NCBI GenBank assembly: GCA_026129905.1
Contig: JAHCHE010000001.1
Span: 496,001 to 560,000 of the forward strand
DNA: 64,000 nucleotides
From: Bryobacteraceae bacterium
GTDB taxonomy: Bacteria; Acidobacteriota; Terriglobia; Bryobacterales; Bryobacteraceae
Direction of reading: 5' to 3'
The first letter of the stretch is position 1, and each line of letters opens with the position of its first letter. The position numbers were made by a program, and so were the translations under genes. The notes under the pieces were generated by a model. The model did no database searches. It had not been told where the DNA came from and saw nothing but the letters and a program-made list of their open reading frames with translations. This document shows, one piece after another, positions 2,216 through 29,371 of this stretch.

Positions 2216-2224
2216 GCTGCGGTT

Positions 2225-2273: not shown

Positions 2274-2347
2274 TCGCAAACCGGAGGTTCGCCCCACCAT
2301 ATGAACCGGGGGCGGGGTGGCGGAAGGCGCCTGCCGCGGCGATATGC

Positions 2348-6829: not shown

Positions 6830-7156
6830 AGGAACACGACGTTTGAATGGCTGTTCCAGGTCAAGATCCCGCCTCCAAGGATTGATTCGCCTCGACGCCC
6901 TTCGCCGGCGGCTTCAGGTCGGAAGAGGAAGCCGGAGCCAACCGGGGACCCGAATGGCGTTGCGATCAGAGCATCCCCTGACGTCTATTTTACCCCTGAT
7001 TCCCGGACTATCTGGTGGCGCACCGCCGGTGATGCCAGCCAACCCGAATCAGCCGGGGCCAAGGTGCGGAGCTCTCCAGCCGTCCGCGAGCCCGCCCCTC
7101 CGGCGCCGCCATCGGACCGTGCTACACTCGATACCGCTGGAGGGGAGAAGAAGATC
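6830..7156. other. Intergenic stretch between divergent genes
   Basis: These 327 bases separate the hybrid kinase from the lipoprotein gene. No ORF with family signals was seen. TACACT at 7123-7128 is a possible -10 for the lipoprotein gene, which also has a Shine-Dalgarno (GGAGGGGAGAAG, 7139-7150). No clear promoter was found for the kinase. Confidence 0.4.
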
Positions 7157-7873: not shown

Positions 7874-7888
7874 GTTCGGGCGCTTTGG

Positions 7889-10507
7889 TTATGCCGGCTG
7901 CCGCAGGCAGACGCCGCGCCGCAGCATCTCTTCCTTGAATGGAGGCAACTGCCTCTCGGGGCAGTCCAGGCCCGTTGCGGCCGCCGCGTCGCGCAGATCC
8001 TCGGTCGCCCACGCCCACAGCCCGATGCGGCAATCCTGCGCCGCCGCCGTCCCGGTGAAGCGCACCGTCGATGTCCCGGAGGCGACTTTCGCGATGTGCC
8101 AGCTCCACTCCGCCAGGTGCGGCAAGACTTCCTTCCACCGGCTCCCCTCGTGCTCGGTCGTGCCGATACGCTTGTCGGACGAACTGCGCCGCAGAGAGAC
8201 TCGCTGGCCATTTACCGTGGCTTCGCACGCGTTGGCCCGATACTCTCGTCCCGGGAACTGCAACAGGAGAAGCGCCTCGCCCGCCGCGCCGTCGGGAATC
8301 GTGACTCTGCATTCGGTTTCGAACGCGACGCCGCCGGAAGGCCCAGGCTTCACGTTGTGCGCCGTGACTTCGCCCGAGGGCATGCCGGAAGGCCGGCGCG
8401 CCGACGGCAGCGCTCGCTCTCCGCTTCGCGGCGAATACAGCCGAGCTTCGCCGGCATCCGAGTCCGCCGCCAGCAGCATCTCGCCCTTCGGACCCCGAAA
8501 CCACCGCGCGCCGAGCGCCACCGGTTCCCGCAGCTCTCCGCGTGGCACGATCTCCAGGAATAGCGTTTCCCACGGCGCCATCGACAGCGTAATGCTCGAC
8601 TCTCTCTTCAACCCGGCCGCGAATCCCTTCCGGTACGGGTACTGCGAATAGCAGAGCGCGTTCGCAAGCCCGCGTGGCGCGCCGTGCTTCGCCAGTTCCA
8701 GCTCGAACTTGCGCGTTTCGTTCGACGGGTTCCGAACCACCAGGATGCCGCGCGTTCCAAGCCAATGCGCATAGACGTACGGCTCTCCCAACTCCACCTT
8801 CGACGGCGTCGCTTTCGTGTGGCGCAGGATCTCCTGGTTGCGCCGCGCCCAGCGTAGAAAGCCCGCGTAGATGCGCCAGTCGTCTTCGGACATGTACGTC
8901 GGATTGATGTACGTCGGCACGAAGAACCGGCCGCGCCCAAACGCCATCGCCGCGTGGTTGGCGAAGCCAGGGTCTTCGTCGGCGTGGACGATATCGAAGT
9001 ATTGCAGCGCGTTTTGCGGGAGCCAGACCTCGTCCATCGAAAGGAAAATAAAAAGCTCCCGCGCGTTGGTGTGCGACTCGCGGTAATCCGGCGCCGGGTT
9101 AATTCCACGCGGGCAGTCTCCCCCGGAGTTCCCCCACACCGAATGCGCATGGCGGATGATCCAGGGGCTGATGTAGTTCGCAAGCGAGTTCAGACATGTC
9201 GGCTCCGTGAACACCTCCGGATTGGCCGCCAGCGAAGCGTCCAGCAGCTCGAACAGGTGGTGCGCCAGCGGCTCCACGGAGTCGTCGCCCGGCAGCAGGT
9301 CGTCGTGCCCGTTGGCCTCCCGGGCGATAAATCCGTCGTACTTGATCTGACGCAGCTCATTTTCCCGGATCAGCCGCGCCAGTTGCTTCTTCGTTTCTTC
9401 CCGGTATCTCGGCTGCCCCAGCGAAAGGCCCGGATGCCGGCGGCCCGGCCGGTAATCGTTCTCGCTTACCACGTAGCCGTTCTGGGCGGCCCAATCGCAA
9501 TCGGTGCTATTCGGATAGACGGCGCTCGGCGACATCCACAAACCCAGCTTGCCGCCCGCCGCCTCCACCGCGTTCCGCAAGGGCGTGAACCCCTCCGGAA
9601 GCTTCTTTCCGTCGATCTGCCAGATCGAATGCTTGTCCGCCCAGCCTTCGTCCGTGGTGACGATATCGAAGAACAGGCCGTGCCTGTCGCCGAGCTTGGC
9701 TTTCAATTCGGCTAGGAGCGCGGCGTACTTCTCCGCCGTGAGTTCGTTGGCGTAGTAGGTCCACCACGTGTTGTAGCAGGCCACCAGCCTCGGCGGCGCC
9801 AGGCGAATGTCGTCGATGTACGCGAGAAACGCGTCCCGCGTCTGGCCCTGCTCCGCCACTCCCATCACGGTCGAATTCAGCGCGAGCCACTCCGTCCCTG
9901 CCGGCTTGCCGCCGGGACGGCTACGCAGCAGGAACCCATCGCCCGAGTATTCGTTGAACGCCGCCGCGAACTCCACGCCCGTCCAGAGCGTGTCGCAGTA
10001 GATCGGGTGGCTCCCGTGCGGAAGGCGGTCCACCGGACGCATCGAGCGCCAGGGCCGCTTCACACCCTGCCAGTCCTCCAGTTCAACGAGCATCACCCGT
10101 TTCGGCTGTCCGTCCCGCTTCAGCCGGATCCGTTTTCGCAGGTACGGCTTGCCGGCAGGTAGTTCGTACTGCACTCGGACGGTCACCGTTTCCTTCGCGT
10201 ACGCCAGTTCGATCCGCGTCGCGTCCCGCGCTTCGACGCTGGCCTCCATCCCGGCCGAGTCCACGCGCTCGCCACCCTCGAACTCGATCGCGAAATCCCG
10301 CGCCGGCAGCGCGACCGTCTCGCGGCTGAGCCGGTTCACCAATTCGCGCGCCGCCAGCTTCCCGCCGCGGATCTCGATTTGAAACTCCAGCGCGCTGTTG
10401 GCAAGCTTCAGAACCGCCGGCTGCTGTTCCCGCGCCAGCGCCGCCGACAGCGGCAAGGCCGCGAGGCCGCCCAGCAGATCTCGTCGAGTAAACGATAATG
10501 GCTCCAT
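7889..10507 (-). CDS. Tat-exported alpha-galactosidase-like glycoside hydrolase (clan GH-D, GH36-like)
   Basis: An 872-residue product is proposed from ATG 10507, which opens with a Tat signal (SFTRRDLLGG then a hydrophobic stretch ending ALA). Further upstream in-frame starts would add 87 residues that look non-coding. An N-terminal beta-sandwich (about 30-255) leads to a TIM barrel with the clan GH-D pattern: a tryptophan-rich ACYNTWWTYYA, FFDIVTTDEGW, ALRNAVEAAGGKLGLWMSP-like text, and IKYDGF holding the likely nucleophile Asp. The C-terminal part is beta-rich. Relatives remove alpha-linked galactose or related sugars. The substrate is not determinable. Export through Tat suggests a folded periplasmic enzyme. 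Confidence 0.75.
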   Translation of the reverse strand: MEPLSFTRRDLLGGLAALPLSAALAREQQPAVLKLANSALEFQIEIRGGKLAARELVNRLSRETVALPARDFAIEFEGGERVDSAGMEASVEARDATRIELAYAKETVTVRVQYELPAGKPYLRKRIRLKRDGQPKRVMLVELEDWQGVKRPWRSMRPVDRLPHGSHPIYCDTLWTGVEFAAAFNEYSGDGFLLRSRPGGKPAGTEWLALNSTVMGVAEQGQTRDAFLAYIDDIRLAPPRLVACYNTWWTYYANELTAEKYAALLAELKAKLGDRHGLFFDIVTTDEGWADKHSIWQIDGKKLPEGFTPLRNAVEAAGGKLGLWMSPSAVYPNSTDCDWAAQNGYVVSENDYRPGRRHPGLSLGQPRYREETKKQLARLIRENELRQIKYDGFIAREANGHDDLLPGDDSVEPLAHHLFELLDASLAANPEVFTEPTCLNSLANYISPWIIRHAHSVWGNSGGDCPRGINPAPDYRESHTNARELFIFLSMDEVWLPQNALQYFDIVHADEDPGFANHAAMAFGRGRFFVPTYINPTYMSEDDWRIYAGFLRWARRNQEILRHTKATPSKVELGEPYVYAHWLGTRGILVVRNPSNETRKFELELAKHGAPRGLANALCYSQYPYRKGFAAGLKRESSITLSMAPWETLFLEIVPRGELREPVALGARWFRGPKGEMLLAADSDAGEARLYSPRSGERALPSARRPSGMPSGEVTAHNVKPGPSGGVAFETECRVTIPDGAAGEALLLLQFPGREYRANACEATVNGQRVSLRRSSSDKRIGTTEHEGSRWKEVLPHLAEWSWHIAKVASGTSTVRFTGTAAAQDCRIGLWAWATEDLRDAAAATGLDCPERQLPPFKEEMLRRGVCLRQPA

Positions 10508-10508
10508 A

Positions 10509-12455
10509 ATGTACCGAAATGGATTATATCCTTTACCGCTCGCCAAAAGGCTATTCGAATCCGTTTTGCTTCTGGCGCTGAGCCTGCCGCACCTGTCCGC
10601 CTCTAACGCGGTGACGCCCGGACAACTTGTGGTCGAGCCGCCCACCCTCATCTGCCTCGGCTTCGAATGGTCCATCTCCGGCGACGAGAACCGCAACGCC
10701 TCCGTCGCGGTGCAATACCGCAAGGCCGGCGCCGGCGCCTGGTCGGAAGCCCTGCCTCTGCTCCGCATCGGCGGCGAACGGGTCTATCGGCGCGACCTCA
10801 GCCTCGAGTATTCCGTCCCCGACATGTTCTCCGGCAGTATTTTCGATCTCGAGCCGGATACCGAGTATGAAGCCCGCTTCGAAATGCGCGATTCCGACGG
10901 CGTCGCCGGCGAGGCCGTCAGAACCGTAAAGGTCCGCACCCGCGCCGAACCGAAAGCCGCTGACGGAGGCCGCGTTCTTCACGTTTACCCGCCCGACTGG
11001 AAGGGCGCCAGACAGGAACCGGCGTTCACCGGCCTCAAACAGGCGTACTTCGGTTCCGGCGGCGGCGACTGGTCCGTGGTGAGCGAACGCAAAGTCGGAC
11101 CCGGCGACGTCATCCTGGTCCACGCGGGCCGCTATCGGGCCGACCGCCTCAATTACGCGGACCGCCTCGGCGTCCCCTTCGACGGAACTTACGTCCTGAC
11201 TGCCAAGGGTACGCCCGACCGGCCCATCGTCATCCGGGCGGCCGGAGACGGCGAAGTGATTTTCGATGGCGACGGCTGTCACCGCCTGTTTGACGTCATG
11301 GCCGCCGACTACCACATCTTCGAAGGCCTAACCGTCCGCGACGCCGACATCGCCTTCTTCGCCGGGTTCAAGGACGTCGGCGGCTCGAAAGGGCTGACCG
11401 TCCGCAACTGCCGCATCGAGGACGTCGGCATCGCCGTCACCACCCAGTTCGCCGGCTCGCGCGATTTCTACATCGCCGACAACGTCATGATCGGCCGGGA
11501 CGAACGCCACCGCCTGGTCGGCTGGTACGATCCAGGCATCTACGGGGCCAGCCGTCTCAAGAGTTATTACGCGGTGAAAGTCTACGGATCGGGTCACGTC
11601 GTTTGCCACAATTACATCGCCTATTTTCACGACGGCATCTGCGTCTGCACTCACGGAACGCCAGAAAAAGAACAGGACTTTAAGGCGGTGTCCATCGATT
11701 TCTACAACAATGACATCCATTTGATGACCGACGACTTCATCGAGGCCGACGGCGGCGTCCACAACATCCGCGTCATGCGCAACCGGGGCGTCAATGCGGC
11801 GCAGTGCGGCCTCAGCGCGCAGCCCGTGTACGGCGGCCCCGCTTATTACATCCGCAACATCGTCTACCACGTGCCCACCGGCTGCGCGCTGAAGTTCAAG
11901 GTGAAACCCGCCGGCCTGGCGCTCTATCACAACACCATCGTCGCCGAGAGCCGTAACGGCGAGATCTTTTCCAACGCTCATTTCCGCAATAATCTCATTC
12001 TCGGGACCGACGGCAAAGACCGCGAGATTTTCCGGTTTCCCAACGCCACCGCGTACTCCAGCTACGACTACAACGGCTACCGGCCCAACCCCAACGCCGC
12101 CCGGAATTATTTCTGGAAATCGCCCGCCTCCGGCGAACTGCGCGACTACGGCCTTGAAACAGCCGAGTTTCGCGCCTTCGCATCACTCGCCGAGCTCACG
12201 GAAGCAAGCGGGCAGGAAGTCAACGGGATCGAGATCGACTACGGCGTCTTCGAGAACCTCCAGCCGCCCGACGCGGACAAGCCGCACGCCGTCTACAACG
12301 CTCGCGACCTGGACTTCCGCCTCAAACCCGGTTCGAAAGCCGTCGACGCCGGCCTCCGCCTACCCAACGTTAACGATGGCTTCACCGGCCAGGCGCCCGA
12401 TCTCGGCGCGCTCGAAACAGGACGTCCGGCGCCGGTCTACGGCCCGCGGCGCTGA
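10509..12455 (+). CDS. Secreted right-handed parallel beta-helix protein
   Basis: A 648-residue protein from ATG 10509, the only in-frame start directly before a signal peptide (LFESVLLLALSLPHLSASNA). After an FN3-like N-terminal domain (about 35-140, ending DTEYEARFEMRDSDG) the protein shows pectate-lyase-like beta-helix text at about 230-560. Examples are VIRAAGDGEVIFDGDG, IFEGLTVRDADI, LTVRNCRIEDVGI, FYIADNVMIGRD and YHNTIVAESRNGEIF. Such folds are common in polysaccharide lyases and epimerases, but no catalytic residues could be assigned. Its start codon is 1 base from the start of the divergent GH36-like gene. Confidence 0.85.
   Translation: MYRNGLYPLPLAKRLFESVLLLALSLPHLSASNAVTPGQLVVEPPTLICLGFEWSISGDENRNASVAVQYRKAGAGAWSEALPLLRIGGERVYRRDLSLEYSVPDMFSGSIFDLEPDTEYEARFEMRDSDGVAGEAVRTVKVRTRAEPKAADGGRVLHVYPPDWKGARQEPAFTGLKQAYFGSGGGDWSVVSERKVGPGDVILVHAGRYRADRLNYADRLGVPFDGTYVLTAKGTPDRPIVIRAAGDGEVIFDGDGCHRLFDVMAADYHIFEGLTVRDADIAFFAGFKDVGGSKGLTVRNCRIEDVGIAVTTQFAGSRDFYIADNVMIGRDERHRLVGWYDPGIYGASRLKSYYAVKVYGSGHVVCHNYIAYFHDGICVCTHGTPEKEQDFKAVSIDFYNNDIHLMTDDFIEADGGVHNIRVMRNRGVNAAQCGLSAQPVYGGPAYYIRNIVYHVPTGCALKFKVKPAGLALYHNTIVAESRNGEIFSNAHFRNNLILGTDGKDREIFRFPNATAYSSYDYNGYRPNPNAARNYFWKSPASGELRDYGLETAEFRAFASLAELTEASGQEVNGIEIDYGVFENLQPPDADKPHAVYNARDLDFRLKPGSKAVDAGLRLPNVNDGFTGQAPDLGALETGRPAPVYGPRR
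10523..10528 (-). promoter_or_regulatory. -10 hexamer TATAAT for the GH36-like gene
   Basis: A perfect TATAAT on the minus strand ends 15 bases before the ATG at 10507 and lies inside the coding sequence of the divergent beta-helix gene. The expected leader is only about 8 bases. No clear -35 is visible. Confidence 0.5.
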
Positions 12456-12458
12456 CCG

Positions 12459-13544
12459 CTATCGCTTGAACGCGCGCTCGAAAAGCTCGTAAGCGAGAGC
12501 CTGCATCTGGCGGTGTATGGCCGTGCGGTCCACGCCTTCCGGGTCGCGGCAGAAGCCGAACTTCTCGGCCCCCAGCGGCGTGCATTCGCTCCCGAAGGTC
12601 ATGTGGTCCACCCGCGGCAGGATCGTGAGCTTTGCGCCCGGAATCCGGTCGGCGAGCAACTGCGCGTTCGTGGCGGCGGGCGTGATCGGGTCGGCGTCGC
12701 CAACCACAATGTGCACGGGGATTTCGATTGCGGCGAGGCTCTCCTTGCCGAAAGCCACGCCCACCGCCGGCGCCATCGGAAACACGGCCTTCACGCGGCG
12801 ATCCTTGAACGATTTCCCCTCCCGGCCGACGGACTCCCGCACTACGGGGTCGCGCGTGGCCCGCTCTTCCAGGGTGTCGAGCCACTCACGGATTTGCGGC
12901 GGCGGTTCGCAGAGCGGGTCCGCCGGGCTCGCGGCGCAGAACTCCCGTAAATGTCTTGAGTCGAATACCCCGCCGGCCAGTTCGATCACCGTCGCCCCGC
13001 CGGAGGAGTGGCCCGCCGCAACCACCCGGTCCGTGTCAACATGGGCGCCGAAGGTCGGATCTTCCAGCAACTTATCCAGAACCACCGACAAATCCCGCGT
13101 CCGCTCCCACATAAACAGGAAACCCTGCGGCAACAATTCCGTTTCCGCCGACGTGTTCCCGTGATGATTCACCGCCGCCGCGATGTACCCGCGCGCCGCG
13201 AAGTAGACGCCCATCCAACTGAGCGCCATTGCCTGGCCGGTGGAACCGTGCGACAGAAGGAGAACCGGAAATTTCCCCTTCGCCGGCGCGGCGCCCGGCG
13301 CGAGGGCATGCTGCGCGAACAGCTTTCTCGCCTCCGGGTCGCCCCACTCCGCGCTCGGCCGCGCGTCCGGCGCCGCCGGGTACCAGACCATAGTGGTCAG
13401 CGGGCGCGCTCCCGTGTTCTGCCAGTTCCGCCGCCCGGCATCCTCGTAGTTCCTGGTCGCCATCCCCACAGGACCCGGCTTTGGCTGAGCGCCAAGACAA
13501 CAACAGCCGATCAATAACCCGAACATTAGTCGCGGCAGGCACAT
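12459..13544 (-). CDS. Secreted alpha/beta hydrolase (dienelactone hydrolase/PAF-acetylhydrolase-like)
   Basis: A 361-residue protein starting at ATG 13544 with a signal peptide of about 18 residues (MCLPRLMFGLLIGCCCLGA). The core has FPVLLLSHGSTGQ (oxyanion region) and the nucleophile elbow GHSSGG with Ser180. A later VGDADPITP segment holds the likely acid, and RVDHMTF contains the likely catalytic His. The sequence layout matches COG4188-type predicted dienelactone hydrolases, many of which are esterases of unknown substrate. It converges with the beta-helix gene, with 3 bases between stops. A TAAACT hexamer 7 bases ahead of ATG suggests a leaderless mRNA. Confidence 0.8.
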   Translation of the reverse strand: MCLPRLMFGLLIGCCCLGAQPKPGPVGMATRNYEDAGRRNWQNTGARPLTTMVWYPAAPDARPSAEWGDPEARKLFAQHALAPGAAPAKGKFPVLLLSHGSTGQAMALSWMGVYFAARGYIAAAVNHHGNTSAETELLPQGFLFMWERTRDLSVVLDKLLEDPTFGAHVDTDRVVAAGHSSGGATVIELAGGVFDSRHLREFCAASPADPLCEPPPQIREWLDTLEERATRDPVVRESVGREGKSFKDRRVKAVFPMAPAVGVAFGKESLAAIEIPVHIVVGDADPITPAATNAQLLADRIPGAKLTILPRVDHMTFGSECTPLGAEKFGFCRDPEGVDRTAIHRQMQALAYELFERAFKR

Positions 13545-13658: not shown

Positions 13659-14825
13659 ATGGTTAAGCTCTGTTGCCTCGCGCTCTTCCTGTCCCCTCTC
13701 GCCTTTGCGGGCGCCGCCGAATTCCCCGAGATCCCGAAGGAGTACCTGGTCCAGGCGGACGCCATACCCGATTTCTGGATCAACACCGTTGAGGGCGTCG
13801 CCGAATTCCTCGATCGGCGCGTCTCCAAAGGCGAGGTGATTACGTTCGGCTCGACCGCCGGCGGCCGGCCCATGCGCGCCGTCGTGTACGGCAGCCTCAG
13901 GCAAGGCCATGGAACCACTACCTTTTCCGGCGCCCGCGGTTTCGGCAACATTCGCGCCTACCTCGGACCCGACCACGAGAAGAAGGTCTACATGGCCATC
14001 GCGTCGGTGCACGGCGGCGAACTCGAAGGCATTGTGGGCATCGTCAACCTGATCTCCGTGCTTGAAACCGGACGCGACCTCCGGGGCAGAGAATGGCCCA
14101 GCATCGTCGAAGCGGCAAGTAAGCTCGACCGCATCATCCTCGTTCCTATCACCAACGTCGACGGGCGGGCCCGCGTCCCGTTCCGCATGCTGCGCCATTG
14201 GGGCAAGGACGAAACCGTCCCCGAGTATTTCAACACCGGCGGCTGGAAGGACGGCAAACTCATCGGCTGGCCCACCTGCAAGGAATTCATTCCGCTCGAT
14301 TTTACGAAGACCCAATTCCCAGGCGGCTATCCCAACGACGCCGGCGTCAACATTCAGCACGACGACTTCTTCGGCCGCCCCCAACCGGAAACCCGAGCGC
14401 TGTTCGATCTCGCCGCGATTGAGCGGCCCGATATCATCCTGAACATGCACACCGGCGGCCCGTGGACGATGCTGCTGCGAGAGTTCATCGAGGCGCCGTT
14501 GATGCCGGTTTTTGAAGACCTCTACCGCCGCGTGCACACGGCGCTGACCGTCGCCGGCCTGCGCGCCACCACCGACGCGGCGCGCGAGTCGGACCCGTCC
14601 CGCATGCGGCTCGGCGCCTTCAACCTCAGTACCGCCCTGAACCTCCACTGCGGAGCCCTCGCCGTCCTGATCGAATCGCCGTCCCACGCGGCGTCCAGCG
14701 CCGTGCGCGACGGCAAGATGTTCGTGCATACGCCGGACGACCTCGTTACCGCGCAGCTCACCTGTCATCGCGAGTCGATGCGGTTTCTCGCCGAGACCGG
14801 CGGCCGCTTCCGCTGGGCCAAATAA
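13659..14825 (+). CDS. Secreted M14-like zinc carboxypeptidase family protein
   Basis: A 388-residue protein with a signal peptide (about 1-20, MVKLCCLALFLSPLAFAGAA) and an M14-type metallopeptidase core. The zinc-binding HxxE is His118-Gly-Gly-Glu121 in IASVHGGELEG. The third ligand is probably His264 in ILNMHTGG, and a catalytic Glu is probably Glu339 in AVLIESPSH. TNVDGRAR at about 166-172 resembles the substrate-carboxylate region. The family includes carboxypeptidases and succinylglutamate-desuccinylase-like amidohydrolases; the substrate is unknown. A Shine-Dalgarno (TTTGGAG) precedes the ATG. The gene lies just upstream of the cobalamin riboswitch but shows no functional link to it. 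Confidence 0.8.
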   Translation: MVKLCCLALFLSPLAFAGAAEFPEIPKEYLVQADAIPDFWINTVEGVAEFLDRRVSKGEVITFGSTAGGRPMRAVVYGSLRQGHGTTTFSGARGFGNIRAYLGPDHEKKVYMAIASVHGGELEGIVGIVNLISVLETGRDLRGREWPSIVEAASKLDRIILVPITNVDGRARVPFRMLRHWGKDETVPEYFNTGGWKDGKLIGWPTCKEFIPLDFTKTQFPGGYPNDAGVNIQHDDFFGRPQPETRALFDLAAIERPDIILNMHTGGPWTMLLREFIEAPLMPVFEDLYRRVHTALTVAGLRATTDAARESDPSRMRLGAFNLSTALNLHCGALAVLIESPSHAASSAVRDGKMFVHTPDDLVTAQLTCHRESMRFLAETGGRFRWAK

Positions 14826-21255: not shown

Positions 21256-23292
21256 TTAGAACGTCTTGCGCGATTCGAGGTGAGCTTCCACCTCGGCGCG
21301 GGTGCGCCAGACGGGACGCAGTTGTTTCTTTGCGAACAGCGGAAGCTGGTCCGCGGCGTGTTTGCTGCCGGGCTGCGACGAATTGCCGTAGCCGATGAGG
21401 GCCTGCGCCCGGACCGGCTGCGAGAACTGGATGGCGGCGACGTAGGAGTCGCCGGACGAGGCAACGCGGCCGCTGAAACCGACCACGCGGAAAATGCCGA
21501 GGTGGCCGGGACCGCCGTTGGCGGGAAGGTCGACGTCGCCGCTGCGGAGCCGGTTCGCTTTGCCCCAGGCGACGCCGGCGGAACCAAACTCCTTTTCCAC
21601 CGACGTGACGGCGGCGGCGAGAGCGGCGACCGCTACGTTTGGCGAGCGCAGTCCGCGCGGCGTAACACGCGGCTGGTCTGGCCGCCACTTTTCGCCGAAC
21701 AGCCCCTGCCCCTGGGAACGCTGCTGCCACTGGTTGACGAAGGCTTCGAACAGAACGGCGCCCGCGCTTTCCGCGTCGGCGCAGCGATCCCACCGGGCGA
21801 GGATGGCCGCGCCACGTCGAGCCGCTGCCGACCCGCTCCCTTTGGCCGCGGTGAGCAACGGATCGAGAATGCGGTCCGCCAGTTCCATCCGGGTGGAGTG
21901 CTTGTAGGCGACCATCTCCTCGAACGAGATGCTGGAGTCCTCGTCCAGCATACGGGCCGACCGCTGGGCCCGGAAATCCATGAACTGCGGCGCCATGTAG
22001 GGAGGAAACCTGGATGGGTCGAGCGGCTGCGGGAAGGTGGTGGTCCATGGCGGGTCGTTGGCGTTCTGGAGCCAGCCGGAAGGCGGATCCACCACACGAG
22101 GCAGATCGGCGTAGGGGTGGGTCCGGGACCATAGGGTGGCGGAGAGGTCACCCGGCGCGGGGCGCTGCCAGAAAGCCCAATCGCCTTGCGAGCGGATGGG
22201 CGTGCGGCCTCCGAACAGGTGCATGATGCGGCCGTCGCGGTCGGCGTACATCACGGTGAACATCGGTATCTGAAGGCGGCTGAGGGCGGCTTCGAACTCG
22301 CGGAGATTCCTGGCTTGCGCCATCAGCCAGTACTGTTCGAGCATGCCCGGCTGCTCGAGACCGGCGACGCGCAGCGCCAGGGCCTTCCCCTTTTTCTCTC
22401 CGATCACCGGGCCGTGGATGGACCGCTTGACGACGAACTCGCGCTCCTCGATGGCGCCGCCGCTCTTGCGCACCTTGAGAACATGCGTTTGCGTCTCGAA
22501 CGGCTTGGCGGCACCGTCCCAGCGGTAGCCGTCGCCTTCCAGGGTGAGTTCGTACAGGTCGGCGCCGTCATACGTATTGACGGTGTGCGACCAGCCGAGA
22601 CTGTCGTTGAACGCGATCGCGAGCACGGGCAATCCGACGAGCGTGGCGCCGTAGACGTCCACGCCGGGCGCGGCCAGTTGCGCTTCGTGCCAGGTGAAGA
22701 AGTCCGACCACGGCAGATGGGGATTGGCGAGCAGCATGGCGTGGCCGGAGGCGGAACGGGGCGGCGCGATGGCCCATGTGTTGGAGCCCGGCGGCGTCCA
22801 CTCCCTGACGTCGCGGCCGAAGCGGCCGGGGTTGGCGACAAAGGAAAAATGGATGATGCGGAGAGTGTGCGCCATAAGGTCGACCGGCTCGACGGGGAGC
22901 ACGGGCTTGACCTCGGCGTCCACAGCGCCGGGATGCTCTCGGGCGTAGTCGTTGACGCCGCGCGCGAAGGCGTCGAGGAACTGGCGCATATCGGGCGGCT
23001 GCGCCTGGAGCCATTCGGCGGCGAGAGCCGGGACGCCCATCGTGTGTGTCCACTGGTCCGCCTCGAGGTACTTATCGCCCCAGTACTCGGCGCCGCCGCC
23101 CCGCGCCTGGCCATAGAGACGAAGCATGAGGTTGGCGTGGCTTTCGGCCTGTGCGTAGCCGTAGGCGTGGAACAAGTCGACGGCGGAGCCGGCGAAAATG
23201 TGAGGCACGCCCCAGGTATCCCAGAGGATCTCGGTTCGCTGAGGAGCGCAGGCGGATAGGATCAGGACGGCTGAGACAAGGAGCTTCCGCAT
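21256..23292 (-). CDS. Penicillin acylase family (Ntn-hydrolase) lipoprotein
   Basis: A 678-residue protein with a lipoprotein signal (LILSAC, Cys15). The alpha-chain part has WDTWGVPHIFA and YGYAQAESHANLM, both typical of penicillin/acyl-homoserine-lactone acylases. The autocatalytic cleavage and nucleophile site is at PPGSNTWAI, with Ser170 expected to become the beta-chain N-terminus; HAMLLANPHLPW follows as in the family. The alpha chain of about 150 residues is on the short side. Substrates in the family are amides of phenylacetate, glutaryl or long acyl chains; quorum-quenching lactone acylases are one possibility. The start is ATG 23292, with TAAGAT 7 bases upstream and no Shine-Dalgarno. 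Confidence 0.88.
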   Translation of the reverse strand: MRKLLVSAVLILSACAPQRTEILWDTWGVPHIFAGSAVDLFHAYGYAQAESHANLMLRLYGQARGGGAEYWGDKYLEADQWTHTMGVPALAAEWLQAQPPDMRQFLDAFARGVNDYAREHPGAVDAEVKPVLPVEPVDLMAHTLRIIHFSFVANPGRFGRDVREWTPPGSNTWAIAPPRSASGHAMLLANPHLPWSDFFTWHEAQLAAPGVDVYGATLVGLPVLAIAFNDSLGWSHTVNTYDGADLYELTLEGDGYRWDGAAKPFETQTHVLKVRKSGGAIEEREFVVKRSIHGPVIGEKKGKALALRVAGLEQPGMLEQYWLMAQARNLREFEAALSRLQIPMFTVMYADRDGRIMHLFGGRTPIRSQGDWAFWQRPAPGDLSATLWSRTHPYADLPRVVDPPSGWLQNANDPPWTTTFPQPLDPSRFPPYMAPQFMDFRAQRSARMLDEDSSISFEEMVAYKHSTRMELADRILDPLLTAAKGSGSAAARRGAAILARWDRCADAESAGAVLFEAFVNQWQQRSQGQGLFGEKWRPDQPRVTPRGLRSPNVAVAALAAAVTSVEKEFGSAGVAWGKANRLRSGDVDLPANGGPGHLGIFRVVGFSGRVASSGDSYVAAIQFSQPVRAQALIGYGNSSQPGSKHAADQLPLFAKKQLRPVWRTRAEVEAHLESRKTF

Positions 23293-23299
23293 GGTGGAA

Positions 23300-23305
23300 A
23301 TCTTA
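23300..23305 (-). promoter_or_regulatory. -10 hexamer TAAGAT, probable leaderless promoter
   Basis: On the minus strand TAAGAT is followed by 7 bases (TTCCACC) and the ATG at 23292. No purine-rich ribosome site is present. Confidence 0.5.
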
Positions 23306-23324
23306 TCGCAGCCGCGGCGGCCGT

Positions 23325-24635
23325 TTACGCTTCCAGTTTCCAGGGCGCGCGGTACTCGCGATGGAGATACCGGGCGGCTTCGGGCTGCCGCGCCGCCATC
23401 GTCTGCTCGTCGAAATCGACGCGGAGGCCGCTGCGGTAGGAGGCGTTGCCGAGCAGGCAGGTGGCCGAGGAGCGGAAGCAGGTCTCGATGTCGCTGTTCG
23501 GCCGGGCGCGGGTACGGACGCAGTCGAGGAAGTTGACCCAGTGCAGCGGGTGCGGATCGGCGACGCGTTTCATCTCGGCGGCGTCGAGCCCGGAACCGGC
23601 CTCCGGAGTGATGCGATAGAGGCTGCGGTCGACGTACAGCGTTCCGTTGGTTCCGTGGAAGGTCAGCCCCATCAGGCGGCGGGGATTGGCTTCGGTGTTG
23701 TTACAGCGATGCTCCCAGGCGCCGATGAACCCGGGGTATTCGTAGGAGACCAGCAGGGTGTCCGGCGTTTCGCGGTCGTCGGTGAACCACAGTTTGCCGC
23801 CCAACGCGGTGATCGCTTTCGGCATGGTTTCTCCGAACGCCATCTGGAGTATATCCAGGACATGGACGCCGGAATCGGTGAGCTGGCCGCCGGCGTAATC
23901 CCAAAACCAGCGGAAATAGGAGTACTGCTTCGGGTAAACGCCGAAGCGGTTGGGATTAAATTCGTGCTCGGGCGCCGGACCGAGCCAGAGGTCCCAATCC
24001 AGGTCCGGGGGCGGGCTGCCGCCCGGCGGGTTGCCGATGCCCTGCGCCGGCGCGTTCTCGTAGATCCAGGCGCGGCAGAAGGCGATCTTGCCGAGCTGGC
24101 CGCCGCGGACGATCTCGCAGGCCTTCTGGAAATGCGCGCCGGAACGCTGCCAGGTTCCCGCCTGGACGACGCGGTTGTACTTGCGCGCGGCCTCCGCCAT
24201 CGTCCGGCCTTCGTTGATCGTGAGACAGACCGGCTTTTCGACATAAACGTCCTTGCCGGCCTTGCACGCCTCGACCGTCATGTATGGATGCCAGTGATCG
24301 GGCGTGGAAATACAGACGAAATCGACGGAGGAATCCGAGATGATTTCGCGAAAATCCTTCACCTCTTTCGGCTGATGGCCGCGGCGGCGGGCGATGGCGG
24401 CTGCGCGCTCCAGGTTCGGCTGGAAAACGTCGCAGACGGAGGCGATCGCGACGCCGGGCTGGCGGGCGGCGACGTCGAGGTTCTCCGAACCCATGACCCC
24501 CACGCCGATGAAGGCGCCGGCGAGACGGTCGTTGGCGCCCCGGATATTGCCGGTGAACAGGGAAGTGGTAAAGGCGGCGCCGGCGGTCTTCAGGAAATCG
24601 CGGCGCTCGGTTTTGTCGTCGGGAGGATTGGTCAC
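23325..24635 (-). CDS. Gfo/Idh/MocA family oxidoreductase with Tat-type signal
   Basis: A 436-residue protein from GTG 24635. The N-terminus carries a Tat-like motif (ERRDFLKTAGA) followed by a modest hydrophobic region. The NAD(P)-binding fold has GVGVMG at 44-49. CISTPDHWHPYMTVEACKAGKDVYVEKP is the family's lid and EKP segment, with the Lys likely catalytic. The C-terminal alpha/beta domain continues with RSGAHFQKACEIVRGGQLGKI. Such exported sugar or inositol dehydrogenases are very numerous in Acidobacteria and Planctomycetes. TATAAA then GGGAAA precede the GTG. Its start overlaps by a few bases the shifted end of a methylase remnant upstream, which marks the edge of the decayed island. 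Confidence 0.9.
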   Translation of the reverse strand: MTNPPDDKTERRDFLKTAGAAFTTSLFTGNIRGANDRLAGAFIGVGVMGSENLDVAARQPGVAIASVCDVFQPNLERAAAIARRRGHQPKEVKDFREIISDSSVDFVCISTPDHWHPYMTVEACKAGKDVYVEKPVCLTINEGRTMAEAARKYNRVVQAGTWQRSGAHFQKACEIVRGGQLGKIAFCRAWIYENAPAQGIGNPPGGSPPPDLDWDLWLGPAPEHEFNPNRFGVYPKQYSYFRWFWDYAGGQLTDSGVHVLDILQMAFGETMPKAITALGGKLWFTDDRETPDTLLVSYEYPGFIGAWEHRCNNTEANPRRLMGLTFHGTNGTLYVDRSLYRITPEAGSGLDAAEMKRVADPHPLHWVNFLDCVRTRARPNSDIETCFRSSATCLLGNASYRSGLRVDFDEQTMAARQPEAARYLHREYRAPWKLEA

Positions 24636-24849
24636 TTTCCCTTTATATCAGCGGGCGGGGACGACCACAGCACCGCGCACAACACGGCGCGGCATGCGGC
24701 AAGGGGCGCCGCGCCCACCAGATGTGCAGCGTCGAGATGTGGCCGTGGCGGATCGACTTCTCCCGTCGCGCATGCGCCGAGATTCTCTTGATCGGCAGAT
24801 CGACCTCGATCAGGCGCTTTGGGTACTCTGTCATGACCGCCTGTTCCAT
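24632..24849 (-). pseudogene. DUF1156 (anti-phage-associated adenine methylase) N-terminal remnant, frameshifted and truncated
   Basis: From ATG 24849 (or the second Met at 24834) the minus strand encodes [20 protein letters not shown] then [22 protein letters not shown]. This is the near-invariant N-terminus of DUF1156 proteins as I remember the family. After PL the frame changes: one missing base near 24700 converts the expected AACRAV into PHAAPCC. Reading the other frame restores [10 protein letters not shown] and then ends at 24632. The normal protein is many hundreds of residues longer. It starts 4 bases after the stop of the TOPRIM-like gene, as in an operon. The rest of the gene is gone and native flanking sequence resumes at the Gfo/Idh/MocA gene. 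Confidence 0.85.
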
Positions 24850-24853
24850 GAAG

Positions 24854-25462
24854 TCAACGATCCCTCCACGCGTTGAAGAGACCCTTCAGATCTTGTAGGA
24901 ACCGCCCGAGAGAGTCCTCGTGCTTCTCCACGTGTCCCAAATCCATTGCCATCACGATGTCCTCCGCGAATTCCTGTCCACCCAGGGGTGCTTCGATACC
25001 GCTGTCGCGGATTTCCTTTCGGAGCTGCCTCTTGTACTCGTCCTTGGCGCATTTCACCGCCGGTGTTGTGCATCCGCGACCAAAGACGGCCTGAAACGCC
25101 CGAGGATCAGCCAGCATCCACCGTTCGATGTGTGGGTCGGGGATGGCGTAGGATACAAGCTGTTCGAACTGGGGGTAACGGTGGAGCCCGTCGTACATGA
25201 GATCTCTGCGGGCGTTGTAGCCTTCGCAGTTGGCATCCGCCACGACGATGACGGCGTCCGGAAGCGATTGCCGGTCTCTTGCCAGATCCCTGAGAAAGTC
25301 TCTGAACTCGCTGTGCATGCGCGGGAGTCCGCCCTGAGAACTCAAGAAGCGGGGACTAACGGCGATTTGCCGTTCCTCCTCGAATCGCCGAAGCAGGGCG
25401 CCAACGAATTTCTCGTGGAACGACTCCTCGCAGAAGAGAATGACGTCACGCATCGAAATCAC
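24854..25462 (-). CDS. DUF4276/TOPRIM-like protein, probable nuclease partner of the ATPase
   Basis: A 202-residue protein that overlaps the end of the ATPase gene by 17 bases (8 if Met4 is used). The pattern is TOPRIM-like: strand then acidic residues ([14 protein letters not shown], Glu12/Glu13), helix, then a second strand with acidic loop ([17 protein letters not shown], Asp76 and Glu80), and a later [13 protein letters not shown]. This fits DUF4276-like proteins that pair with SMC-like ATPases in defence loci, similar in logic to AriB of PARIS (DUF4435) or the TOPRIM half of GajA. No frameshift or early stop is seen, unlike the genes either side. A nuclease role is inferred, not shown. 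Confidence 0.7.
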
Positions 25463-26759
25463 CCCGGAGCAGCCGCTGGGAGACAGGTAGCTGCTCGGCG
25501 CGCTCCTCCAGCGCCGAGTCTATTCCCAGTTTCCGGCCGAGCGGGCCCCACGTCTCAAAAGGCTCGATGACCGTGGCGCCCTCTGTCTTCCTGCACACAA
25601 AGAGGGAATCATCGGGCACATGGTCCGGGAGAATAGGGGAGTGTGTGGTGACGATGAGTTGAGTGTTGCCGGACTCGGCCCTGGCTGCCAGGATCTTCGT
25701 GATGTCCCGAATACGACGGGGGTGAACTCCGTTTTCTGGTTCCTCGAAGCCGATCACCGCAGGCGGCTCTTTCACACCGCCAAGAGCAAGCAGGCCAAGA
25801 GCGCGCAACGTACCTTCGGAAACAACTCGCGCGGGCATGGCCACATTCCCTTCCAAAAGACTGAGTTCCACCTCGCCGATCTTGTTGACCTCGGTTCTGA
25901 TCCCGGTGATGGAGGGAATGAGGCTATGCACGGCCTTCTCCACCGCCGCGAATTGACGGGAATCGAGGTTCCGGAGTGTGTTGAGGAAGGCGGCCAACTC
26001 TTCTCCCATCAAGCCGATGTGACGAACCTCCTTCACGCTGGTCGCGGCCCTCATCCGCTCGCGCGGCTCGAAGTAGTAGAAGAACCAGCTTTGCAGTTCT
26101 TTCCTGAGGGCGGTCAGATGAGGGTAATGCGGAGGGTAGTGAGGACGAGACAGGATTGCGTGGTCCAGGTAGCGGTCAAAGTAGGTAGGGTGCGACTGCC
26201 CCTCCATCCGAAGATGAATACGGTTGGCCTTCCTCTCGAGAAACGGCTGTGGCTTAGCCTTCGGTTTGCCATCCCGACCGAGGGCAGCCAGGTACTCGTC
26301 GGCCACGTGCAGCACCCCAGTCTTGGGGGTGATTCCGATCTCGATTCGATATCGCAGTTGCCTGTGGTGAATGTAAGAGACCGGTCTCTTGGATTCGCCG
26401 CCATCAGCTCCGGGCCCGTGCCCGCGCCGCATCTCGAGTATCTCCTTGTTGACGGAGTCGATGACAACGGGTGAGATCTCAACGTCAACCTCCAGACGAA
26501 AAGACGCCGAGTCCCGACTCAGCAGTCCCTCCAGACCGCCCTCGTCAAAGGAGAAGGACTCCATCGGTTTGCCACGGTAGGGAGGCTCAAAGGCTTCCTT
26601 CAGACTGCGGCTTCCGGCAATCCGAGACAGGAGCTGGAGGGCGTCGATGAAGTTGCTCTTGCCGGCCGCATTCGGGCCGAACAAGACCGACAGCGGCTTC
26701 AACGTCACTTCGACGTTGCGCAAGGATTTGTAATTCTGGATATGTATTCGCCGGATCAT
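25446..26759 (-). CDS. SMC/OLD-like AAA ATPase of a defence pair
   Basis: A 437-residue ATPase of the AAA_15/AAA_21 type. Walker A is GPNAAGKSN (28-36) after the typical RRIHIQNYKSLRNVEVTLKP-like opening. The ABC-like signature is SEGT (314-317), Walker B is AVIGFEEPENG (Glu339/Glu340), and the switch His is His373 in LIVTTHSP. The central part is a helical insert with aromatic residues. The C-terminus (about 385-437) is specific to this group. It starts 18 bases after the last stop of the helicase remnant, and its product would form a two-gene module with the TOPRIM-like protein. Motifs are intact, so the protein is probably functional. Base composition looks less GC-rich than the flanks. 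Confidence 0.85.
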   Translation of the reverse strand: MIRRIHIQNYKSLRNVEVTLKPLSVLFGPNAAGKSNFIDALQLLSRIAGSRSLKEAFEPPYRGKPMESFSFDEGGLEGLLSRDSASFRLEVDVEISPVVIDSVNKEILEMRRGHGPGADGGESKRPVSYIHHRQLRYRIEIGITPKTGVLHVADEYLAALGRDGKPKAKPQPFLERKANRIHLRMEGQSHPTYFDRYLDHAILSRPHYPPHYPHLTALRKELQSWFFYYFEPRERMRAATSVKEVRHIGLMGEELAAFLNTLRNLDSRQFAAVEKAVHSLIPSITGIRTEVNKIGEVELSLLEGNVAMPARVVSEGTLRALGLLALGGVKEPPAVIGFEEPENGVHPRRIRDITKILAARAESGNTQLIVTTHSPILPDHVPDDSLFVCRKTEGATVIEPFETWGPLGRKLGIDSALEERAEQLPVSQRLLRGDFDA

Positions 26760-26776
26760 TGGATCACTCTCTCAGC

Positions 26777-27122
26777 CTACGCCGCCAGGATAGCGCTTGC
26801 GGGTACATGGTAGTGCTCGGAGTCTCCGGATTTTCCGGATGGGCGCGCCGGGAGATCAGATCGAAGCCGCGTTCCTCCGTCTCTACGCTGACCGCCTTCC
26901 GGCCCCGGGGGCGCCGGCCAAAAGGAAACGAATGCGCGGCAACCGCAGGAAATGGTCGTAGACCGGCCAGAGCTGGCGAGGCAAGGGCTCAACAGGGGCG
27001 ATCGAAGGCATGCCGACGAGCTTGATCGAGACGCCCATCGGCGCGACGCGGATCACCTGGACGGGCTCCGGGAGCACTGGACCCCGAACGATAGCGTTGG
27101 TCTTTAGTTCGGACACTTCCAT
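26777..27122 (-). pseudogene. Gutted DUF3883-type SNF2 helicase remnant
   Basis: The minus strand keeps scattered pieces of a helicase of about 1000 residues. From ATG 27122: a standard N-terminus (LKTNAIVRGPVLPEPVQVIR, PMGVSIKLVG). It then joins directly to the motif just before Walker A (PVEPLPRQLWPVYDHFLRLP, RIRFLLAGAPGAG), where the family normally has DDPGAGKT. A stop at 26883 ends that frame. A second frame continues with VSVETEERGFDLISRR, like the DUF3883 region. A third frame ends EHYHVPASAILAA, resembling the helicase C-terminus, with its stop at 26777. So both ends and two internal motifs survive in 346 bases. It is not a functional gene. The family assignment is from memory of conserved text. 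Confidence 0.75.
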
Positions 27123-27531
27123 GATGTTGCCTTGCTTGAAGCGCCCCCTCTTCTGGACTGCGACCCGGCTTTGGACTGCCCAAAAAGCCGAATACCACGG
27201 ATTAGGTTGCGAGAACCGTCACCTGATGTCGGCATCAATCGGCTATTGTGACAAAAATTCAGACTGTCAGGGTCGAAACATCGAAGAGAACCGGGCCCGG
27301 GCTGCGCCGCGAGTCTACCCGATTTCAATCGGCCCATTGAAGCAAGGCGCCTCGAAGTCGAGGGACGATACCGTTGCCCGCCACAACTTCAAGCGGTTCC
27401 GAAAGCGGCTCCGCGACTGATTGCGCAGGCCGGACCGAAGCTGCTGGCGCGGCGGTGTGGGAAGCTTGCGGGGCGGCGAAGGTTGCTGATAAGATCGTGT
27501 GCCGGTCCGCGTTCGGATCCGATGACCTTTC
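27123..27531. other. Gene-free stretch upstream of the glycan operon
   Basis: In these 409 bases no ORF on either strand shows family text. The part near 27171-27290 is more AT-rich than the rest and may contain the old promoter of the decayed island. TAAGAT near 27493 is a possible -10 for the glycan operon. No tRNA, integrase or obvious attachment repeat was found here. Confidence 0.35.
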
Positions 27532-28422
27532 ATGCAAGTTTCCGTCGTCGTTGCCTCCCTCGTGGGGGCGCCCTTCATCGACAGGTGTCTCGCCTCGCTG
27601 GAGAGCGAGGCCAAAGCCTTTGGCGCCGAAGTGATTGTTGTCGCCTGCGGTTCTAAGGACTACGCGGAGCGAATCGCCAGGCAGTTTCCGTGGACCCGCG
27701 TCGTGCACCGCCCGGAGCGGGAAACGGTGCCGGAATTGCGCCGGCACGGCGTGCTGGAATCGAAAGGCGAGATCGTCGCGATCATCGAAGAGCACTGCAC
27801 GGCCGGCAAGAACTGGCTGCGTCACGCGGTGGAAGGCCACCGGCGGGGCGACTACGGCGCGGTGGGCGGTCCCGTGGTGGACAACAACTACGGCCGGCTG
27901 CGCGATTGGGTGGTGTACTACATCGAGTACAACGGCTACATGCCGCCGTTCGCCGAAGGCGAGGCGTGGGACCTCAACGGCGCCAACATCGCCTACAAGC
28001 GGAGCGTGCTGCTGGCGCACCAGCATCTCCTGGCGGGCGGATACTGGGAGGCTTCGCTGCATCCGGCGCTGCTGGCGAACAAGGTGAAGTTTCTCTCGCT
28101 GCCGGAGATGAAAGCGCATCATACCGGGCCGTTCGATTTCGGGTATTACCTGGAACAGCGTTACCTGTTCAGCCGGGCGTTCGCGGGTTCCCGGTCCAAA
28201 GGCATGCCGGCGCCGAAGAAGCTGGCCTACCTCGCCGCCGCGCCGTTAATTCCGGCGGTTCTGCTGGCGCGCATCGGGGCGCGAGTGTGGCAGAAGCGGT
28301 GTCATCCGGGCAAGTTCCTGCTGGCGTCGCCCCTGATCTCGGTGGCGCTCATCGCCTACGTGTGGGGGGAATGGATCGGGTACCTCGCGGGTCCGGGCGA
28401 TGCGTTGATGAAGGTGGAGTGA
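27532..28422 (+). CDS. GT2-like glycosyltransferase with C-terminal membrane segments (paralogue 1)
   Basis: A 296-residue protein starting at ATG 27532. The N-terminal part looks like GT-A family 2 (VSVVVASLVGAPFIDRCLASL, GAEVIVVACGS). The usual DxD site is replaced by IIEEHCTAG (Glu86-Glu87-His88). WDLNGANIAYKRSVL matches the acceptor-side segment. Two hydrophobic helices at about 226-250 and 263-290 would anchor it in the inner membrane. It is the first gene of a run of eight coupled genes and a paralogue of the next one, which starts 1 base after its stop. A role in building a surface or exported glycan is inferred from the operon. The donor and acceptor are unknown. Confidence 0.8.
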   Translation: MQVSVVVASLVGAPFIDRCLASLESEAKAFGAEVIVVACGSKDYAERIARQFPWTRVVHRPERETVPELRRHGVLESKGEIVAIIEEHCTAGKNWLRHAVEGHRRGDYGAVGGPVVDNNYGRLRDWVVYYIEYNGYMPPFAEGEAWDLNGANIAYKRSVLLAHQHLLAGGYWEASLHPALLANKVKFLSLPEMKAHHTGPFDFGYYLEQRYLFSRAFAGSRSKGMPAPKKLAYLAAAPLIPAVLLARIGARVWQKRCHPGKFLLASPLISVALIAYVWGEWIGYLAGPGDALMKVE

Positions 28423-28423
28423 G

Positions 28424-29371
28424 ATGGGGGAGGCGGAGGAACCGGTCCTGTCGGTGGTAGTGGCGATCGTCTGCGACACGATTCGCGCGCGGTCGGACGC
28501 GACGTACCTGGAGGGGAGCCTCGAGTCGCTGGCCCGGCAGGAGGACGCGCCTCCGATGGAGGTGATCGTGCCATATCACCCGCGAATCCGCGGGATTGAG
28601 CGGGCGCGCGAGCGGTTCCCTTGGGTGCGTTTCCTCCCGGTGAACGATCTCAAAGAGTACAAGGAGAACGAAGCGGGCCGGGAACACCACGACGAACTCC
28701 GGTCGCGGGGGCTGGCAGCCGCCCGGGGCCGCATCGTGGCGATGCTGGAAGATCACGGGCGCGCGGCGCCGCGGTGGTGCGCCAACATCGTCCGGGCGTA
28801 CGAGCGGCGCTTCGCCGGCGTTGGCGGCGCGATCGAAAACTCGGTGGACCGGCCGTTGAACTGGGCGGTATACTTCTGCGATTTCGGCCGCTATCAGAAT
28901 CCGGTACCTGCCGGAGAAGCCTTGATGATCAGCGACGCCAACGCTTCATATAAACGGAGCGAACTGGAAGCGGTGCGCTCGTCGTGGGCGGCGTTGTTCA
29001 ACCAGGTGGAGGTGAACGGCGCGATCCGGGCGCGCAGTCAGAAGCTCGGCATCTTCCCGGACATCGTGATCTTTCAGCATCGGGAAGGGCTGGGTTTGAA
29101 GGAGGCGCTGGCGGAGCGCTACGTATGGGGCCGTTCGTTCGCTTCGAGCCGCGTCAGGTGGATCGGCGGCGTCAGGAGGGCGATTCACGCGTTTCTGACT
29201 CCGGTTCTGCCCGCGGTGTTGGTGGCGCGGATGACGCTCGACGTGATGAAGAAGGGCCGGTTGCGCGGGGCGTTCCTGAAGGCGTTGCCGCTCACCGTTC
29301 TGCTGTCGGTGAGCTGGTCGGCGGGCGAACTGGCGGGCTACCTGACGGGAAGCGCGCGAATGGCGCGCTAA
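28424..29371 (+). CDS. GT2-like glycosyltransferase with C-terminal membrane segments (paralogue 2)
   Basis: A 315-residue protein with the same plan as the gene before it: N-terminal strand VLSVVVAIVCDT, an acidic site AMLEDHGRAAP (Glu109-Asp110-His111) in place of DxD, the segment ISDANASYKRSEL, and two C-terminal hydrophobic helices (about 245-265 and 285-305). The ends of both proteins share a GE(W/L)xGYL pattern. Start ATG 28424 follows the previous stop by a single base, so translation is coupled. The two enzymes may act in turn on the same lipid-linked acceptor, but this is inference. Confidence 0.8.
   Translation: MGEAEEPVLSVVVAIVCDTIRARSDATYLEGSLESLARQEDAPPMEVIVPYHPRIRGIERARERFPWVRFLPVNDLKEYKENEAGREHHDELRSRGLAAARGRIVAMLEDHGRAAPRWCANIVRAYERRFAGVGGAIENSVDRPLNWAVYFCDFGRYQNPVPAGEALMISDANASYKRSELEAVRSSWAALFNQVEVNGAIRARSQKLGIFPDIVIFQHREGLGLKEALAERYVWGRSFASSRVRWIGGVRRAIHAFLTPVLPAVLVARMTLDVMKKGRLRGAFLKALPLTVLLSVSWSAGELAGYLTGSARMAR

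Follow-up and report, generated by a model that had tools for sequence, protein, structure and literature searches.

A 64,000-nucleotide stretch of the genome of a soil bacterium of the Bryobacteraceae (contig JAHCHE010000001.1, positions 496,001 to 560,000; hereafter the window) carries two intact neighbouring genes, one for an OLD-type ABC ATPase and one for a DUF4276 protein, between remnants of hmaA and hmaB, the helicase and DUF1156 methylase genes of the defence system Hma. The pair is of the HEC-01 type (Hma-embedded candidate 01 of PADLOC-DB; the HEC names reportedly stem from a preprint). We read the locus as a fossil: an Hma system would once have held a two-gene module of the HEC-01 type, placed between hmaA and hmaB, and Hma would later have been lost through deletions that left the module whole and probably able to work alone. 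We put the probability of this reading at roughly 0.8.

Anatomy of the locus

Read in the direction of transcription (minus strand, 24.6-27.1 kb), the locus consists of an hmaA remnant, the ATPase gene, the DUF4276 gene and an hmaB remnant (Table 1). The original prediction, made from the sequence alone, had described decayed helicase and DUF1156 genes around an intact ATPase and DUF4276 pair, and all four parts were confirmed at their positions. The spacings that had suggested a single operon agree as well: the DUF4276 gene, taken from its GTG start, overlaps the ATPase gene by 17 nt, and 4 nt separate it from the DUF1156 frame. The collinear remnants of hmaA and hmaB support the view that the pair was once part of a methylase-helicase system that broke down on both sides of it.

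Table 1. Features of the proposed Hma fossil in the window.
Feature	Position	Strand	Evidence
hmaA (helicase) remnant	26764..27122	-	tblastn with HmaA of loci L007, L008 and L018; PADLOC HmaA/DrmD match
HEC-01A-type OLD/AAA_21 ABC ATPase, 437 aa, intact	25446..26759	-	Pfam, PADLOC, alignment, structure model
DUF4276 probable TOPRIM-type nuclease, intact	24854..25462	-	DUF4276 profile, alignment, structure model
hmaB (DUF1156 methylase) 5′ remnant	24643..24849	-	PF06634, HmaB model, two-frame matches, junction control

HmaA proteins from three loci that hold relatives of the pair (L007, L008 and L018, see below) match the window by tblastn with E values of 6e-16 to 1e-11. Codon 1 of hmaA lies at 27122, aligned with residue 1 of the L018 HmaA open reading frame (ORF), and gapped N-terminal pieces reach the Walker A region (27122-26895). 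A C-terminal piece, about 100 residues from the C-terminus, is found in another frame at 26946-26821 (E 6e-8 to 4e-7, 52-55% over 42 columns). The remnant retains both end regions, and most of the ~1200-residue protein is gone. The PADLOC HmaA/DrmD match to the first frame covers HmaA positions 101-135 (1.8e-5). By eye, and unscored, EHYHVPASAI in another frame after the C-terminal piece resembles EHYRLKADSI near the end of intact HmaA.

At the other border, about the first 67 codons of hmaB are left, with a frameshift near codon 47-52: one frame matches HmaB as far as codon ~50-62, a second frame extends the match to ~67-70, and no further match follows. The remnant scores 4.2e-15 with PF06634 and 4.4e-18 with the PADLOC HmaB model (profile positions 6-51 of 967), and 45 of 53 aligned residues are identical to intact HmaB of L007 and L008. 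Of 67 pair junctions examined, 60 do not adjoin intact-type Hma, and four of these 60 (the window, L054, L010 and L004) have an hmaB 5′ piece of at least 28 bits directly after the DUF4276 gene. Such a piece was found in 0 of 907 control windows at 28 bits, and in 1 of 907 at 26 bits. Chance is thus excluded as the origin of the hmaB piece at the junction. A search for hmaC (DUF499) between 23000 and 29000 returned only matches with E of 0.1 or worse.

The frame of the ATPase contains no stop and matches AAA_21 (5.8e-29) and AAA_15 (4.2e-22). Its best PADLOC model is HEC-01A (3.1e-54), the next other names being PDC-M07A (6.2e-34) and AriA (6.5e-28). The stretch GPNAAGKSN, which we take to be the Walker A motif, is present together with SEGTLR, EEPENG and THS stretches. 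An alignment was made of 40 of the 80 ATPases collected (see below), window included; 92 columns are invariant in the 39 others, and the window differs at none of them. The structure model (predicted local distance difference test, pLDDT, of 80.6) has its best fold matches among SMC/Rad50 heads (Z 20.6), and also aligns with retron/Septu PtuA-type ATPases (Z 17-19).

The DUF4276 partner is 199 aa long from the ATG at 25453, or 202 aa from the GTG at 25462. Residues E9, D73, N75, E110, W112, K134 and K141 are invariant in the 52 aligned rows (52 of 65 partner sequences, window included), and among 18 columns invariant in the 51 other partners the window differs at one (D10 to E). The TOPRIM layout places a Glu after strand 1 and a D-x-D after strand 3. 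In the confident model of the partner (pLDDT 95.7), E9 follows strand 1 (residues 2-8) and D73-A-N75 follows strand 3 (67-71). A VIA fold comparison ranks the OLD Toprim domain second (Z 8.2, 4.3 Å, 169 residues), behind the uncharacterised protein 2p62 (Z 11.2). A TOPRIM fold is plausible, with moderate support from the model, and the partner is a probable TOPRIM-type nuclease that would be switched by the ATPase.

The gene adjoining the hmaB remnant encodes a Gfo/Idh/MocA oxidoreductase and starts at 24635. The window's genome has one copy of the pair's ATPase, two other matches being distant (27% and 36%). It also has a second, different DUF499-DUF1156 locus (L147, G000:C23:1-4776), in which a gene for a 993-aa DUF499-like protein is followed by a DUF1156 gene cut by the contig end.

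Relatives, fossils and the age of the collapse

A scan of genome contigs confirmed 124 stretches, of which the best 80 loci were kept (ATPase identity 56-83%; loci are numbered with the prefix L). The ATPase frame is free of stops in 79 of the 80, and the DUF4276 partner was detected by tblastn in 66, mostly with a short overlap. Hma genes lie nearby in 9 loci (L007, L008, L009, L018, L027, L029, L032, L056 and L071), and 7 have scars only (L004, L010, L012, L015, L054, L058 and L066). The scar in L066 is weak (21 bits, gone with a larger profile), and that in L015 is a tblastn match of 69 bits (62%) with a profile score of zero. The remaining 64 loci have no Hma evidence nearby, counting as such L028, L040 and L060 with their weak Hma-like matches; weak hmaB-like junction matches in L023 and L035 were left out of the count. 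When only the 62 loci are counted whose contigs extend 2.5 kb or more upstream and 3.2 kb or more downstream, 8 have Hma, 5 have scars and 49 have neither; for the 49 loci with at least 9 kb on both sides, these figures are 4, 4 and 41.

Relatives with an intact helicase-ATPase-TOPRIM-DUF1156 order, for which the original prediction proposed a search, were found. L007 has the complete adjacent order: helicase 1199-5107, ATPase 5101-6408, DUF4276 gene to 6988, DUF1156 gene 6979-9969 and DUF499 gene 10565-13411. L032 has the four-gene order with open genes and gaps of 330-430 nt. The other embedded loci vary: L008 has ~2.2 kb between helicase and ATPase, and extra sequence separates genes in L027 and L009 too; in L018 helicase, ATPase and partner are present and the hmaB frame ends after ~353 codons; L029 and L056 are without a partner by tblastn; and in L071 the pair precedes the helicase.

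On a tree of 81 ATPases (the 80 loci and the window), a minimum of 8 changes is required to separate embedded loci from the remainder, and 10 to separate loci with any trace of Hma from those with none; for embedded against fossil rows only, 4 changes are needed. Since 64 of the 80 loci have no Hma nearby, and embedding changed at least 8 times on this tree, we conclude that the pair is a free module for which Hma is an occasional, minority host. In seven Poribacteria loci (L062, L069, L070, L076, L077, L080 and L081) the ATPase is open and no DUF4276 partner was found by tblastn; in L062 and L076 an ORF right after the ATPase has a partner-like stretch (FVED...) and is perhaps a decayed or diverged effector.

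The window sits in an acidobacterial clade of 7 (support 100/100), none of which has intact Hma. Seven neighbours of the pair in the window gave no match at 1e-5 to the loci of the six acidobacterial relatives (up to 10 kb per side, with shorter flanks for L006 and L026), which suggests that the location of the pair differs between these genomes. The flanking glycosyltransferase matches 9 of 237 genomes of the family and the flanking oxidoreductase 158 of 237; in a search for the empty site, among the matches listed, only the window's own contig carries both. In L004, the pair and its hmaB scrap are flanked by a 140-bp direct repeat (88.6%; 9720-9858 and 12197-12336), which may mark insertion of the whole fossil. 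None of 14 candidate stretches of viral contigs encodes a relative, and the 111 plasmid records that match are all below 60% identity.

Fossils with the same anatomy exist elsewhere. A search for DUF1156 covered 396 genomes of the phylum, 63 of which gave a match, and 30 genomes holding relatives of the pair, 20 of which did; regions were fetched around most of the DUF1156 matches listed with long open frames, plus selected short ones. These fossils were found through the start of HmaB, so the sample is biased to hmaB-start scars. L243 (Verrucomicrobia) is a four-part fossil, with a C-terminal piece of HmaA (positions 1075-1130), HEC-01A (2.9e-152), HEC-01B (1.4e-56) and HmaB positions 7-102. 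In L241 (Dehalococcoidia), a 638-aa OLD/GajA-like protein stands with HmaA 1088-1167, HmaB 8-74 and HmaC 74-159. An HmaB scar alone is found in L246, beside PtuA and PtuB (Septu), and in L245, beside a 285-aa gene without Pfam match. L142 likewise has the HmaB scar alone: RAMP-family genes (3545-6344), which also occur in type III CRISPR systems, lie directly upstream of an hmaB 5′ scrap. The hmaB-like pieces of L143, L144 and L244 were dropped for their small size or low score (27 residues with 35-37 bits; 8 bits), and L211 and L190 were rejected as hmaB N-terminal scraps, the matched residues preceding the DUF1156 part (in L211, they lie in an ATPase-like part). In L188, an open frame of 292 aa (5658-6536, minus strand) matches HmaB positions 9-45 near its start; this may be a case in which a new protein has taken over a scrap of hmaB as its N-terminal part.

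Between the window and L003 or L004, the ATPase has a non-synonymous divergence (dN) of ~0.12 and a synonymous divergence (dS) near or beyond saturation, dN/dS being 0.04 for L003; the partner, compared with that of L004, gives 0.195/1.57 = 0.12. Several comparisons lacked a defined dS and were not used. Judging from these ratios, the pair is under purifying selection overall. The hmaB scrap is 85-87% identical to intact HmaB over ~53 residues, an identity that dead sequence would not hold after silent sites have saturated, and we infer for that reason that the lineage of the window lost a working hmaB long after it had parted from L003 and L004. If so, the L004 scrap (30.8 bits and 68% over 22 columns) would reflect a separate or older loss. 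A scrap this fresh, with synonymous sites near saturation, means that the intactness and low dN/dS of the pair cannot prove selection after the collapse, and we rejected that use of the ratio. The dN/dS values therefore bear out purifying selection on the pair, and leave selection after the collapse undatable.

Repeats of the hmaB 5′ end

In L054 (Planctomycetota), which shares its contig with L248, the 5′ end of hmaB is present three times in nearly identical form, at 1-56, 2054-2272 and 2978-3196, and no copy is whole. The copies (219 bp, 93%; the third 45 bp, 100%) bound the HEC-01 pair and an MNT/HepT-like pair on either side, the latter named by eye. In L220, direct repeats of 519 bp (97.3%; 11298-11812 and 14004-14522) end 70 nt inside hmaB and flank a HEC-01A-type ATPase (3.6e-75) with a 204-aa ORF without family match; a third hmaB 5′ piece is present at 6690-6766, before the helicase. 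A 143-bp repeat surrounds a TmtA-like gene (1.6e-51) in L140, and one of 138 bp an OLD/GajA-like gene (Old 1.5e-47) in L141. L188 and L238 have an upstream repeat and no clear module, and in L009 29 bp of hmaB are found immediately upstream of the HEC-01 ATPase.

A same-strand upstream repeat of the first ~150 nt was detected in 6 of 98 distinct long hmaB frames (L009, L140, L188, L204, L220 and L238), those of L009, L204 and L238 being short (29-48 bp). The rest of hmaB, ~95% of its length, yielded same-strand repeats in 9 loci, 3 of which have dispersed repeats in both orientations (L150, L175 and L223); the repeats of this kind in L184, L185, L205, L207, L224 and L236 show that such copies are not confined to the 5′ end. 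In L148, two hmaB copies lie in inverted orientation. Of 12 loci in which the region upstream of the HEC-01 ATPase was tested, two (L009 and L054) have a clear copy of the hmaB 5′ end there. In the window, a copy upstream of the ATPase had been matched by eye and was rejected, its score of 18 being reached by 115 of 500 shuffles.

The bias towards the 5′ end and the upstream side is what one would expect if modules were inserted through recombination at the start of hmaB. The strong conservation of this stretch also eases its detection, which confounds the 5′-end bias. As a tentative proposal, which we hold at somewhat less than even odds, the hmaB 5′ end may be a landing pad: modules would arrive with a copy of the hmaB start, recombine in the conserved stretch and leave direct repeats, which would permit swapping or looping out. 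After collapse of the host, scars of the hmaA end and the hmaB start would remain, as they do in the window. Hma would thus trade in modules, and free-standing defence systems could arise from its fossils. We consider the repeat pattern the most promising new lead. None of the publication titles listed concerns hmaB repeats; the source preprint of the HEC names, or others, may hold one.

To our knowledge, the embedding of small defence modules is established, their entry route and later fate are not. The window represents a clear late stage of embedding, with the host gone and the module left between stubs. Stubs in other phyla, beside HEC-01, Septu, OLD/GajA-like and MNT/HepT-like genes, open the life cycle of embedded modules to testing, and further defence modules might be located by the hmaB scraps beside them. 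The recurring fossils hint at how small defence modules enter, and then outlive, bigger systems.

Explanations and known systems

According to the reading that we prefer, Hma (helicase HmaA, DUF1156 methylase HmaB and normally the DUF499 ATPase HmaC) would have carried a HEC-01-type module between hmaA and hmaB. Deletions would then have taken most of hmaA and everything of hmaB past codon ~67, as well as hmaC if it was once present, leaving the module whole, bordered by the start and end regions of hmaA and by the hmaB start. From what is known of these families, the OLD-type ATPase would dimerise on ATP and sense a sign of infection, and would activate its partner, a TOPRIM-like nuclease, which would stop phage or cell. 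The pair can probably work alone, because most of its relatives live without Hma, and it may still be active here.

Several observations weigh against this reading. The partner passes the DUF4276 profile by a slim margin (5.6e-7, 30.4 bits for a gathering cut-off of 30.2) and matches the best HEC-01B model, which has no curated cut-off, weakly (1e-4, 20.3 bits). It has E at residue 10, a D in all other rows, and an Asn (N75) in place of D at the second metal-binding position, and the top fold match is an uncharacterised protein, with OLD Toprim only second. Foldseek found no match of the partner model in the PDB at E 1e-3 or better, so that structure prediction gives the TOPRIM fold proposed originally the OLD Toprim match at Z 8.2 and nothing from Foldseek. 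A scan of 24500-27600 for sigma-70-type promoters found none. The six acidobacterial clade mates (L003-L006, L017 and L026) are all without intact Hma, so the Hma past of the window rests on its remnants and on the scrap in L004. Finally, pairs are broken in near relatives: the partner of L003 is in two frames, in L017 the ATPase is interrupted by a stop and the partner is split in two, the ATPase of L090 is reduced to its two ends and that of L093 is in two frames, although errors in metagenome-assembled genomes might account for these. Such broken pairs argue against addiction, and contradict the suggestion that the module is addictive to lose.

The broken pairs, and the late death of hmaB, whose scrap keeps its high identity while the pair's synonymous sites are near saturation, would also be expected if the pair itself were decaying, with no function left, and survived only through the recency of the Hma collapse. 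We think this unlikely: several separate lesions hit hmaA and hmaB and removed most of both, whereas the 1.9 kb between them show no damage, 92 of 92 invariant columns are preserved in the ATPase and 17 of 18 in the partner, and most members of the family stand alone and have an open ATPase. Another account makes the hmaB piece the module's own tail and not what is left of a resident hmaB, each insertion next to hmaB bringing a copy of the hmaB 5′ end and leaving a short scrap. The modules between hmaB 5′ repeats in L054, L220, L140 and L141, the upstream repeats of L188 and L238 and the 29 bp of L009 are in its favour, yet an upstream copy is clear only in L009 and L054 among the 12 loci and there is none in the window, where the hmaA remnants point to a real Hma on site. 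It appears distinctly unlikely, though it and the decay of a resident hmaB can both hold. The third alternative is a PARIS-like guard, in which the ATPase would respond to anti-restriction proteins made by a phage to block Hma, whereupon the nuclease would kill the cell. It shares the ATPase-plus-TOPRIM arrangement of PARIS, and PMC12839542 argues for a backup-effector role of OLD-ABC/TOPRIM modules in BREX and related loci; we find it improbable nonetheless, as the pair is not AriA/AriB by sequence and 64 of the 80 relatives have no Hma to guard. Of the nested guard imagined in the original prediction, the embedding is real, but it belongs to the known Hma-embedded candidates, with Hma only an occasional host.

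These comparisons leave the fossil of an embedded HEC-01-type module as our preferred reading, and known systems resemble the locus to different degrees. HEC-01 is the closest: HEC-01A is the best model for the window ATPase, the partner is a DUF4276 protein, like that of L243, a locus with strong matches to both HEC-01A and HEC-01B, and the pair lies between hmaA and hmaB, as remnants in the window and as open genes in L007 and L032. It differs in that the window partner matches HEC-01B weakly and that the carrier system is destroyed. Compared with Hma itself, a Type-1 BREX-related, DUF499-centred system, the helicase and DUF1156 methylase remnants are in the right order and strand, but both genes are reduced to fragments and a DUF499 gene was not detected in 23000-29000: the locus is a fossil, not a system. 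More distantly, MAD3 of MADS is a related ATPase (NCBIfam 1.6e-42), at 146 bits for a cut-off of 420; AbiL resembles the window ATPase (AbiLi 1e-23), and PtuA of Septu is similar to it in fold; the DUF4276 partner has no AbiL or Septu model match at E 1.

PARIS, which is triggered by anti-restriction proteins and cleaves tRNA, likewise has an OLD-type ABC ATPase gene beside a small TOPRIM-type gene. The PARIS-like character first proposed holds for this architecture and not for sequence membership: AriA scores 6.5e-28 against 3.1e-54 for HEC-01A, and the partner has no AriB model match. By analogy, PARIS and Gabija would be the nearest working models for the pair.

Hma is defined in PMC8565338, and treated in PMC12839542 as a set of DUF499-centred BREX-related systems, OLD-ABC/TOPRIM pairs in BREX and related loci being considered backup effectors. 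Hma-embedded candidates are genes between Hma genes, some with shown antiviral activity (PMC12988326, PMC12111858). The sections seen of the literature on these candidates, the source preprint of the HEC names lying outside them, contain no test of HEC-01 itself; they do describe HEC-04, an ATPase-TOPRIM fusion active against T4 and T5 (PMC12988326, PMC12111858). The nested design is thus already described under the name of Hma-embedded candidates, and the window pair is of the HEC-01 type.

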